A stretch of 64,000 nucleotides of DNA from an uncultured Alphaproteobacteria bacterium (GTDB taxonomy: Bacteria > Pseudomonadota > Alphaproteobacteria > SP197), in NCBI GenBank assembly GCA_958295695.1, contig OY282363.1, positions 2,980,225 to 3,044,224 on the forward strand, in the 5' to 3' direction. A program made the translations under genes and the position numbers. This document shows, piece after piece, positions 22,887 to 26,194 of this stretch. The notes beneath the pieces were generated by a model, which saw nothing but the letters and a program-made list of their open reading frames with translations, was not told the origin of the DNA and searched no databases. Positions within the stretch are counted from its first letter, which is position 1. Every line of letters starts with the position of its first letter.

Positions 22887-23855
22887 ATGCCCGAAACCCG
22901 TCACAGCCGCGTTCTCGTCATGGGGTCCGGCCCGGCAGGGCTGACGGCCGCCGTCTACGCGGCGCGCGCGGGCCTCGATCCGGTGCTGGCGCACGGCATC
23001 CAGCCGGGCGGACAGATGACCATCACCACGGACGTGGAGAACTATCCGGGTTTCGCCGACGTCGTCCAGGGCCCCTGGCTCATGGAGCAGATGACCGAGC
23101 AGGCCGGGAAGGTCGGCGCCGAGATGGTCCACGACATCATCGCGGCCGTCGACTTCTCCGTCCGGCCGTTCCGCGCCACCGGCGACTCGGGCGCCCTCTA
23201 CACCGCCGACGCCGTCATCGTCTCGACCGGCGCCCAGGCGAAGTGGCTGGGCCTGGAGAGCGAACGGAGGTTCCGGGGGTTCGGCGTGTCGGCCTGCGCC
23301 ACCTGCGACGGCTTCTTCTTCCGCGGCAAGGAGGTCTGCGTCGTGGGCGGAGGCAACACGGCCGTCGAGGAGGCGCTCTATCTCACCAACCACGCCGCCA
23401 GGGTGACGCTGATCCACCGCCGCGACGCGCTGCGCGCCGAGAAGATCCTGCGGGAACGCCTGTTCCGCCATCCCAAAATCGACATTCTCTGGGACACGGT
23501 GCTCGACGAGGTGCTCGGCGCGCCCGAGCCGCCGTCGGTCGCCGGCGTCCGCGTCCGCGACGTGAAGACCGGCATGGAGAGAGAACTCGCGCTCGACGGC
23601 GTCTTCATCGCCATCGGCCACCGGCCGAACACGGAGATCTTCAGGGGCGTGCTGGACATGGACGACGAGGGCTACATCGTCACCGCGCCCGACAGCACGG
23701 CGACCGGCATTCCCGGCGTGTTCGCGGCCGGCGACGTGCGGGACAAGGTCTACCGCCAGGCCGTGACCGCCGCGGGCGCCGGCTGCATGGCGGCGCTCGA
23801 GGCCGAGAAATACCTCGCCGTCCTGGAGAGCGGGGACCGCGTCGCGGCCGAATAG
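22887..23855 (+). CDS. trxB: Thioredoxin-disulfide reductase
   Basis: TrxB is the NADPH-FAD enzyme that reduces thioredoxin. The 322-aa product has the FAD-binding GSGPAGLTAAVYAARAGL, GGQMTITTDVENYPGF, the redox-active CATC (about 137-140) followed by DGFFFRGKEV, the NADPH-binding GGGNTAVEEALYL, and the terminal GVFAAGDVRDKVYRQAVTAA. ATG 22887 is the family start. A LysR gene follows after 20 nt, an arrangement also seen in other alphaproteobacteria. Confidence 0.96.
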   Translation: MPETRHSRVLVMGSGPAGLTAAVYAARAGLDPVLAHGIQPGGQMTITTDVENYPGFADVVQGPWLMEQMTEQAGKVGAEMVHDIIAAVDFSVRPFRATGDSGALYTADAVIVSTGAQAKWLGLESERRFRGFGVSACATCDGFFFRGKEVCVVGGGNTAVEEALYLTNHAARVTLIHRRDALRAEKILRERLFRHPKIDILWDTVLDEVLGAPEPPSVAGVRVRDVKTGMERELALDGVFIAIGHRPNTEIFRGVLDMDDEGYIVTAPDSTATGIPGVFAAGDVRDKVYRQAVTAAGAGCMAALEAEKYLAVLESGDRVAAE

Positions 23856-23875: not shown

Positions 23876-24766
23876 ATGGACTGGGACCGTCTGCGCGTCT
23901 TCTACCATGTCGCCGAAGCCGGCAGTTTCACCAAGGCCGGCGACCTCCTGAACCTGAGCCAGTCGGCGGTCAGCCGCCAGATCGGCGCGCTCGAGGAGAG
24001 CCTCGGGGTCAGCCTCTTCCACCGCCACGCCCGCGGACTCCTGATCACCGAGCAGGGCGACCTGCTCTACCGCACGGCGCGCGAGGTCTACGGCAAGGTC
24101 GCCATGGCCGAGGCCAAGCTGACCGACAGCAAGCAGCGGCCGAGCGGCCATCTCACGGTGACGGCCACCACCGGCTTCTCGATCATCTGGCTGATGCCGC
24201 GCATCGTCGACTTCATGGACCGCTATCCGGAGATCTCGATCGGCCTGAGGATCGAGGACGGCGAGCTCGACCTGTCGATGCGCGAGGCGGACGTGGGCAT
24301 CAGGCTGAACCGCCCGACCCAGCCGGACCTGATCCAGCGCCGCCTCATGACCATCCACTTCCACTTCTTCGCCTCGCCCCATTACCTCAAGGCCTGGGGT
24401 ACGCCGAGGACGCTGGAGGATCTCGAGAAGCACCGGATGATCCTGTACGACCACGGCCCCCTGAAGAGCGTGGTCAGTCCCGAATGGCTGCCGCGCGCCT
24501 TCGGCGAGGACCGCCCCCAGCGGCGGCCCGCGCTGACCGTCAACTCCATGCTCGGCATGCGCCGCGCCGTCGAGAGCGGCCTGGGGATCGCGATCCTGCC
24601 CGACTACGTCCTCGAAGGGTCCGACAAGAAGGTCCGGCTCGACATCGAAGCCCCGCTGCCGACCGCCGAGGCCTATTTCGTCTATCCCGAGGAACAGCGG
24701 AACTCCGCCCGGATCACGGCGTTCAGGGACTTCCTGCTCGACAAGGTCGCCGGCACACGGTTCTAA
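23876..24766 (+). CDS. LysR-family transcriptional regulator
   Basis: A 296-aa LysR-type regulator: N-terminal winged helix (MDWDRLRVFYHVAEAGSFTK, LNLSQSAVSRQIGALEESLG, LFHRHARGLLITEQG) and a periplasmic-binding-like effector domain from about residue 90. It is probably in one transcript with trxB, so a role in redox control is possible but not shown. Most LysR genes are divergent from their target; this one is not. No operator was identified. Confidence 0.9.
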   Translation: MDWDRLRVFYHVAEAGSFTKAGDLLNLSQSAVSRQIGALEESLGVSLFHRHARGLLITEQGDLLYRTAREVYGKVAMAEAKLTDSKQRPSGHLTVTATTGFSIIWLMPRIVDFMDRYPEISIGLRIEDGELDLSMREADVGIRLNRPTQPDLIQRRLMTIHFHFFASPHYLKAWGTPRTLEDLEKHRMILYDHGPLKSVVSPEWLPRAFGEDRPQRRPALTVNSMLGMRRAVESGLGIAILPDYVLEGSDKKVRLDIEAPLPTAEAYFVYPEEQRNSARITAFRDFLLDKVAGTRF

Positions 24767-24890: not shown

Positions 24891-24936
24891 CGCCGCGGCG
24901 ATTTGTCATGACATGTTACGAGTCATGCGCGCCACG

Positions 24937-25116
24937 CATGTCTGGGTTGCCGAACCGTGCATGGCGGCCGTCCGGGCGAGGCATTATCTTTCCTCAACGG
25001 CACGGACGAACCGCAGCATCGCGCGGTTGTCCTTCGACGGATGCCCCCCGATCGATGCGTGCCGTCCAGGTTCGACCTGGAACGGGACCTTCGGGTCCCG
25101 ACGTCTCCCAGACGTG
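24937..25116 (+). ncRNA. Candidate structured small RNA (about 180 nt core)
   Basis: No protein gene fits this stretch, but it folds strongly by eye. The ends pair as CATGTCTGGG (24937-24946) with CCCAGACGTG (25107-25116). Inside are GGACGAACCGC/GCGGTTGTCC (25004-25032, one bulge), a GACGG/CCGTC helix, CCAGG-TTCGA-CCTGG (25066-25080) and GGGACC-TTCG-GGTCCC (25084-25099). A textbook terminator follows at 25136-25168 on the same strand, 370 nt past the LysR gene. The closed ~180-nt shape recalls 6S RNA, but I do not recognise the sequence, and tmRNA, RNase P and SRP RNA signatures are absent. Confidence 0.55.
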
Positions 25117-25135
25117 AAGCCTCCCTTATGACTTC

Positions 25136-25168
25136 GAGGCCGGGCCGCAAGGACCCGGCCTCTTTTTT
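25136..25168 (+). terminator. Rho-independent terminator of the candidate small RNA
   Basis: A perfect 9-bp stem GAGGCCGGG/CCCGGCCTC with a 9-nt loop is followed by six T on the plus strand. On the minus strand no T-run follows, so it does not serve msrP. Confidence 0.85.
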
Positions 25169-25189
25169 GCGCCGCGGGGCCGGCCGTCG

Positions 25190-26194
25190 TCACATGAAGA
25201 GGCTCTCGTCCTCCATGCCGGCGTAGAGCGCGGCGACCTGCTCGCCGTAGCCGTTGTAGATCTGCGTCGCGATCCTGTCCTGGGTCCCCAGCACGCGCTC
25301 CTCGGCCTGGCTCCAGCGCGGGTGGGGAACGTCCGGGTTCACGTTGGCCCAGAAGCCGTATTCGGAGGGCACGAGCTCCTCCCAGAACGTCGTCGGGCGC
25401 TCCTCGGCGAGCGAGACGCGCACGATCGACTTGACCGACTTGAAGCCGTACTTCCACGGCAGGTGGAGGCGCAGCGGAGCGCCGAACTGGTTGGCCATCG
25501 GCTTGCCGTAGGCGCCGGTCACGACGAAGGCCAGATCGTTGCCGGCCTCCTCGACCGTCACGCCTTCGGTGTAGGGCCACGGATACCAGAACTGGCCCAG
25601 CCCCGGCGCCCAGTCGACGTCGTCGAAGGTCTGCATCACGACATACCTCGCCGAGCCGAGCGGTCTGGCGAAGGCGACCAGGTCCTTCAGCGGAAAGCCC
25701 GTCCAGGGCACGACCATCGACCAGGCCTCGACGCAACGGTGGCGGTAGACGCGCTCCTCAAGGTCCATCGCGCGGATGAGCGTGTCGATGTCGACCGTCT
25801 TCTCCTCCTCGACGAGACCGTCGAACGCGACCGCCCACGGCCGGCGCGGCAGATCCCCGGCGCGCCTCCAGATCTGCTTGTGGCTGCCGAACTCGTAGAA
25901 GTTGTTGTAGGTCAGGTTGTCCGCTTCCGGCGTCACCACGCGGCCGGCGTCGGCATGGGCGCCGTTGAGCGGCGCGGGATAGAGATCGAGGGTGGGGTCG
26001 GCCTCGGCCTGGGCGTTGGCGGCCTCGACGACTTCCTCGGCGGCGTCGGCCGGACCGAACGGCGCGGCGACGGCCGCCGCCGCGATGGGGCCGGCCGCGA
26101 TCGCCTTCACGAGCTGGCGGCGGTTCAGGTAAACGGATTCCGGCGTCGCGAGCCGCTCGGGAAGCTCCCAGCCCCGCGGTGACTTGATCAGCAT
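25190..26194 (-). CDS. msrP: Protein-methionine-sulfoxide reductase catalytic subunit MsrP (YedY)
   Basis: MsrP is a periplasmic molybdopterin enzyme that repairs oxidised methionine in envelope proteins. The 334-aa product has a Tat signal (twin Arg at about 25-26 in NRRQLVKA, then an Ala-rich hydrophobic stretch), NNFYEFGSHKQIWRRAG, the Mo-ligand Cys (about 154) in RHRCVEAWSMVVPW, and the C-terminal LHLPWKYGFKSVKSIVRV. The membrane partner gene msrQ, usually adjacent, is not in this window. The next gene upstream starts its own transcript 60 nt away. Confidence 0.94.
   Translation of the reverse strand: MLIKSPRGWELPERLATPESVYLNRRQLVKAIAAGPIAAAAVAAPFGPADAAEEVVEAANAQAEADPTLDLYPAPLNGAHADAGRVVTPEADNLTYNNFYEFGSHKQIWRRAGDLPRRPWAVAFDGLVEEEKTVDIDTLIRAMDLEERVYRHRCVEAWSMVVPWTGFPLKDLVAFARPLGSARYVVMQTFDDVDWAPGLGQFWYPWPYTEGVTVEEAGNDLAFVVTGAYGKPMANQFGAPLRLHLPWKYGFKSVKSIVRVSLAEERPTTFWEELVPSEYGFWANVNPDVPHPRWSQAEERVLGTQDRIATQIYNGYGEQVAALYAGMEDESLFM

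Follow-up and report, generated by a model that had tools for sequence, protein, structure and literature searches.

A folded element between a LysR gene and msrP

The window, the 64,000-nucleotide stretch of alphaproteobacterial DNA analysed here, contains a strongly folded segment that raises a simple question: is it an RNA gene and, if so, of which kind? The segment is bounded by the stop codon of a LysR-type regulator gene (24766) and by the stop side of the convergent gene msrP, which lies outside it (25190-26194, minus strand; NCBIfam NF003767 MsrP, 393.8 bits). The original prediction placed an RNA gene of no recognised family at 24937-25168, and saw in it either a divergent known housekeeping RNA, resembling 6S RNA in size and closed shape, or a new small RNA (sRNA), to be checked by Rfam searches and covariation analysis. 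Much of this description is borne out by the sequence: a gap of 170 nt follows the LysR stop, the space holds no credible open reading frame, and a T6-terminated element with several hairpins is present. The span 24937-25168 folds at -114.4 kcal/mol, against -91.0 +/- 4.9 kcal/mol in 200 dinucleotide shuffles, none of which was as good (z -4.8).

The 5' boundary and the closed shape of that prediction, by contrast, are wrong. The 10-bp closing helix (CATGTCTGGG/CCCAGACGTG, 24937-24946 with 25107-25116) is there as letters but not as a conserved structure: one to three mismatches interrupt it in each of the other eight copies from the window's bacterial family. Its 5' arm precedes the inferred transcription start and coincides with a putative LsrB site, and its pairing is in competition with that of a hairpin at 25101-25115 that every copy keeps. 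The helix appears because the LsrB site happens to complement an arm of this hairpin. The fold is relatively stronger from the inferred start, with z -5.9 and no equally good shuffle for 24996-25168, and these positions delimit the sRNA gene of about 173 nt on the plus strand.

The gene opens with a 5' domain (24998-25064) that occurs in close relatives, consisting of a closing helix, CGGCAC/GUGCCG, around inner hairpins; all nine copies keep the six pairs of this helix, and at two of these pairs both sides have changed. One inner hairpin (25034-25055, UCGACGGAUGCCCCCCGAUCGA) presents a C6 loop, a third C-rich loop of the RNA; 97% of cells are paired and the C6 run is invariant in nine copies from the window's bacterial family, and this hairpin is possibly a third pairing site. 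The hairpins P1 (25083-25100, CGGGACC-UUCG-GGUCCCG) and P2 (25101-25115, ACGUCU-CCC-AGACGU) follow, then a linker that is single-stranded in the predicted fold (25116-25126, GAAGCCUCCCU), and finally an intrinsic terminator, formed by a GC-rich hairpin and T6 (25136-25168). CUCCCA in P2 (aSD1) and GCCUCCCU in the linker (aSD2) are both complementary to Shine-Dalgarno sequences.

Homologues and covariation across the class

In a DNA search of 60 relatives, the 3' part of the element was conserved far outside the bacterial family, and a longer stretch in close kin only. The near-invariant core of the homologues, ACGUCUCCCAGACGUGAAGCCUCCCU, comprises the hairpin that exposes CUCCCA and the linker with its second anti-Shine-Dalgarno motif, and is followed by the terminator. 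P2 is near-invariant, and AGCCTCCC in the linker invariant, in 70 aligned homologues; behind the shared core ACGUCUCCCAGACGUGAAGCCUCCCUGUUnAACUU, the letters of the terminator hairpin vary while its pairing stays constant. A pattern scan of named genomes recovered at least 118 such stretches, with Azospirillum, Roseomonas, Reyranella, Kiloniella, Thalassospira, Nisaea, Belnapia and others among the matches listed.

An alignment of 70 sequences (MAFFT/RNAalifold) mis-registered the terminator and yielded five pairs only, and we therefore built our own covariance model, R1, on 20 well-registered sequences. Changes on both sides were found, in at least one sequence, at 12 of the 20 pairs of the model. 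Both-side-changed cells numbered 45, compared with 14.5 expected from shuffles; none of 500 shuffles reached the observed count, and sliding the partners destroyed the signal, although these figures lean towards structure because the 20 sequences were picked partly for having been registered by MAFFT. The weight is carried by P1 (four of six pairs changed on both sides across the class) and by the terminator (seven of eight stem pairs), since the nearly invariant P2 contributes little covariation of its own.

In the window R1 matches at 25070-25166 with 59.7 bits (E 7e-14), the one clear place in the genome. Across the class it matches 170 of 385 sampled genomes at E<=1e-3, placing the RNA in 121 of the 277 genera sampled. 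That the segment is merely the terminator region of lysR, or a folded spacer that is never transcribed, is on this evidence highly improbable: the core has kept the same letters in many families, the stems covary, and the helix of the 5' domain is conserved too.

Known RNA families

No Rfam family reached its gathering threshold in the stretch that holds the element, and the covarying homologues extend class-wide, in keeping with the earlier view that no recognised family is represented here. Our search for the core sequence in the open-licence literature found no paper, and by these two sources the RNA family is uncatalogued and undescribed. It is therefore new to the database but not new in kind, as the anti-Shine-Dalgarno type is that of AbcR, mmgR and SorX, and the locus that of AbcR. 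Other weak Rfam matches in the window, including CRISPR-DR9, BjrC1505, CC0196 and SorY, were all far below cut-off and were discarded.

The housekeeping reading, which drew on the size and closed fold of the span first proposed, carries a negligible probability. The closed shape leans on the unconserved helix, no housekeeping family of Rfam matches the element, and the 6S model (RF00013) matches elsewhere in the genome and not here, which already refutes a 6S identity at this level. That other match is itself a probable 6S RNA gene (locus L031, C1:1495261-1495407, minus strand); at 39.5 bits, with a cut-off of 46.4, it would be missed by standard annotation.

The best relaxed Rfam match, at 25096-25175, was to suhB/mmgR (alpha-r8, RF00519; 35.5 bits, cut-off 41), a family that shares the Rfam clan CL00108 with ar15. 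The score, together with the shared succession of a hairpin, a CCUCCCU linker and a terminator, might suggest a divergent member of the suhB/mmgR/SisA group. We consider this very unlikely: the score stays under the cut-off, the 10-mer UUUCCUCCCU is absent and UGAAGCCUCCCU stands in its place, and the neighbouring gene encodes a LysR regulator rather than the N-formylglutamate amidohydrolase (PMC12559287). Typical alpha-r8 genes moreover have loci of their own in genomes that also carry the window RNA's relatives, and the two families are thus distinct. A second weak suhB/mmgR match in the window's own genome (C1:1664460-1664536, minus strand, 29.4 bits) is a candidate alpha-r8 RNA.

The ar15 model of the AbcR RNAs (RF02345) has no match in the window's genome at E<=1, and by score the window RNA falls outside Rfam ar15. 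A class-wide ar15 search returned no match anywhere, controls included, and is uninformative on absence.

The trxB-LysR-sRNA locus

The sRNA is the last element of a conserved locus. Its first gene is trxB, encoding thioredoxin reductase (22887-23855, plus strand; NCBIfam TIGR01292, 392.7 bits, above cut-off, and synteny). The second encodes a LysR regulator (23876-24766, plus strand; Pfam HTH_1 and LysR_substrate) that we identify as an LsrB/VtlR orthologue: it is 44-45% identical both to S. meliloti LsrB and to a Rhizobium protein annotated as VtlR, and 65-66% identical in the DNA-binding domain. A search with this protein at E<=1e-55 gave a single hit in 103 of 106 matching genomes and two in the other three.

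The LysR gene is present at 106 of 139 loci of the RNA family, several of the loci that lack it being ones where the sequence ends near the RNA; most of the 106 keep the trxB-LysR-sRNA order. It usually lies 135-470 nt upstream of the RNA on the same strand, and at 1-2 kb in a few cases. Starting from the regulator instead, R1 scores at least 30 bits at 59 of 100 LsrB loci, always on the LysR strand (59/59), with a median start 184 nt past the LysR stop.

The pair trxB-vtlR/lsrB is also the neighbour of abcR1 and abcR2 in Agrobacterium and Sinorhizobium (PMC7486931, PMC8844928). In named LsrB orthologue loci, taken from a plasmid collection, genuine AbcR genes scoring 97-127 bits with the ar15 model occupy the same place in S. 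meliloti, in Shinella, in a Sinorhizobium sp. and in R. leguminosarum, whose protein is annotated as VtlR. The window LysR contains no cysteine, compared with three in S. meliloti LsrB, and redox sensing through cysteines or disulfides cannot therefore be assumed for it; judging by the protein sequence, its signal may differ from that of S. meliloti LsrB.

A putative operator and promoter

A putative LsrB-type operator lies between the LysR gene and the RNA (24922-24948, plus strand). It combines the dyad ATGCG-N5-CGCAT (24925-24939) with GCATGTCTGGGTT at 24936-24948, which fits the published LsrB consensus, and the aligned operator motif is shared by S. meliloti and R. leguminosarum. Dyads of the form ATGC-N5..8-GCAT occur at 42 of the 59 sRNA-bearing LsrB loci, against 4.8% of shuffles. 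A predicted -10 hexamer, TTATCT (24984-24989, plus strand), has a position conserved in relatives, and relatives in the bacterial family keep both the operator element and a -10-like hexamer. Transcription would accordingly begin near 24996 (+/-3), which puts the operator between about -60 and -48 and agrees with the abcR1 promoter, where the LsrB site GCAT-N3-TG-N3-T lies at -61 to -49 (PMC8844928).

These upstream elements bear on a further possibility, namely that the RNA is SorX-like, with a 5' end made by processing. SorX is processed by RNase E from the 3' UTR of ompR (PMC8625941, PMC6238624). Members of our family score 25-43 bits against SorX (RF02784, cut-off 46.6), a homologue with the same core (L191) passes at 47.0, and Rhodobacterales LsrB loci carry SorX-family RNAs, a match in genome G168 and one of 52.6 bits at the LsrB locus of Paracoccus denitrificans among them. 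Against such an origin, an operator and a -10 element are conserved between lysR and the RNA, the window locus has no SorX match, and tandem second copies of the RNA (L008, L009) retain a similar upstream element; we judge it unlikely. The RNA that follows LsrB in Rhodobacterales is of the SorX type (L341, L345, L373), and L341 and L345 have the LsrB dyad upstream of it as well; SorX and the LsrB-linked RNA may be paralogues.

Proposed function

We favour, with good though not complete confidence, the explanation that the element is a genuine sRNA gene whose product is of the AbcR type, activated by LsrB and acting in trans to block ribosome-binding sites. The gene would have its own promoter and correspond to AbcR1, though in a lineage that does not belong to the Rhizobiaceae. 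The LysR protein encoded upstream, of the LsrB/VtlR type, would bind ATGCG-N5-CGCAT and activate a weak sigma-70 promoter, giving a transcript of about 173 nt. P2, through CUCCCA, and the linker, through its own motif, would present two anti-Shine-Dalgarno sequences for pairing with ribosome-binding sites in target mRNAs. Hfq would probably assist, and pairing would lower translation and stability. AbcR RNAs bind Hfq and repress the mRNAs of ABC transporters; by analogy, the targets here are probably nutrient-uptake genes under repression. Perfect 9-nt complements (GGGAGGCTT) occur at 10 sites in the window's genome besides the gene, none of which clearly lies at the start codon of a gene that could be recognised.

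With R1 there is now a covariance model that captures an RNA currently missed by annotation based on Rfam.

Comparison with known systems

AbcR and its activator LsrB/VtlR have been studied as host-interaction circuits. We lean, by a modest degree, towards a single LsrB-controlled anti-Shine-Dalgarno RNA as the ancestor of AbcR in the Rhizobiaceae, of the SorX-family RNAs in the Rhodobacterales and of the uncatalogued window family elsewhere, with the trxB-LsrB-sRNA module ancestral to much of the Alphaproteobacteria. If so, a circuit deemed special to host-associated rhizobia and brucellae would be a general one. A matching RNA at the same locus, with the same operator, in more than 100 genera opens the origin of the circuit to tests in free-living groups, Azospirillum and Kiloniella for example. 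As the ar15 model misses the window's genome and R1 gives no match to rhizobial AbcR genes, the case for common descent is built on position, operator and architecture rather than on sequence.

The mmgR/suhB/SisA RNAs share with the window RNA the hairpin, the CCUCCCU linker, ACUU and the terminator, and AbcR has been reported to be partially homologous to SuhB (PMC7143759). They differ in seed and neighbourhood, and co-occur as a separate gene. SorX shares the linker CCUCCCUGUUNNACUUG and the terminator, and is linked to the family by the bridging homologue and the Rhodobacterales loci described above; its 5' hairpin is unrelated in sequence, the SorX that has been studied derives from the ompR 3' UTR, and the window copy falls below detection by its model.

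AbcR1/AbcR2 (alpha-r15) differ from the window RNA in several respects. Their middle hairpin, SL2, is absent from the longer window RNA, where the linker passes directly into the terminator, and the aSD1 hairpin, first in AbcR, is here second to last, behind the extra upstream hairpins of P1 and the 5' domain. The window family is mostly single-copy, and its range extends well beyond Rhizobiaceae and Brucellaceae, the two families to which alpha-r15 is described as confined (PMC3712013). In both cases, the RNA gene follows trxB-lsrB/vtlR on the strand of those genes, and an LsrB consensus lies equally far from the start (inferred for the window). Both present a CUCCCA hairpin, this sequence being motif M1 of Brucella AbcR (PMC5461406), with a second anti-Shine-Dalgarno motif in the following linker, so that the two single-stranded motifs of AbcR are each matched, and both end in a terminator. 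Tandem copies occasionally occur in the window family as well, two each in L008 and L009 and three behind one LsrB gene in L287 (genome G181), resembling the tandem arrangement of AbcR1 and AbcR2.
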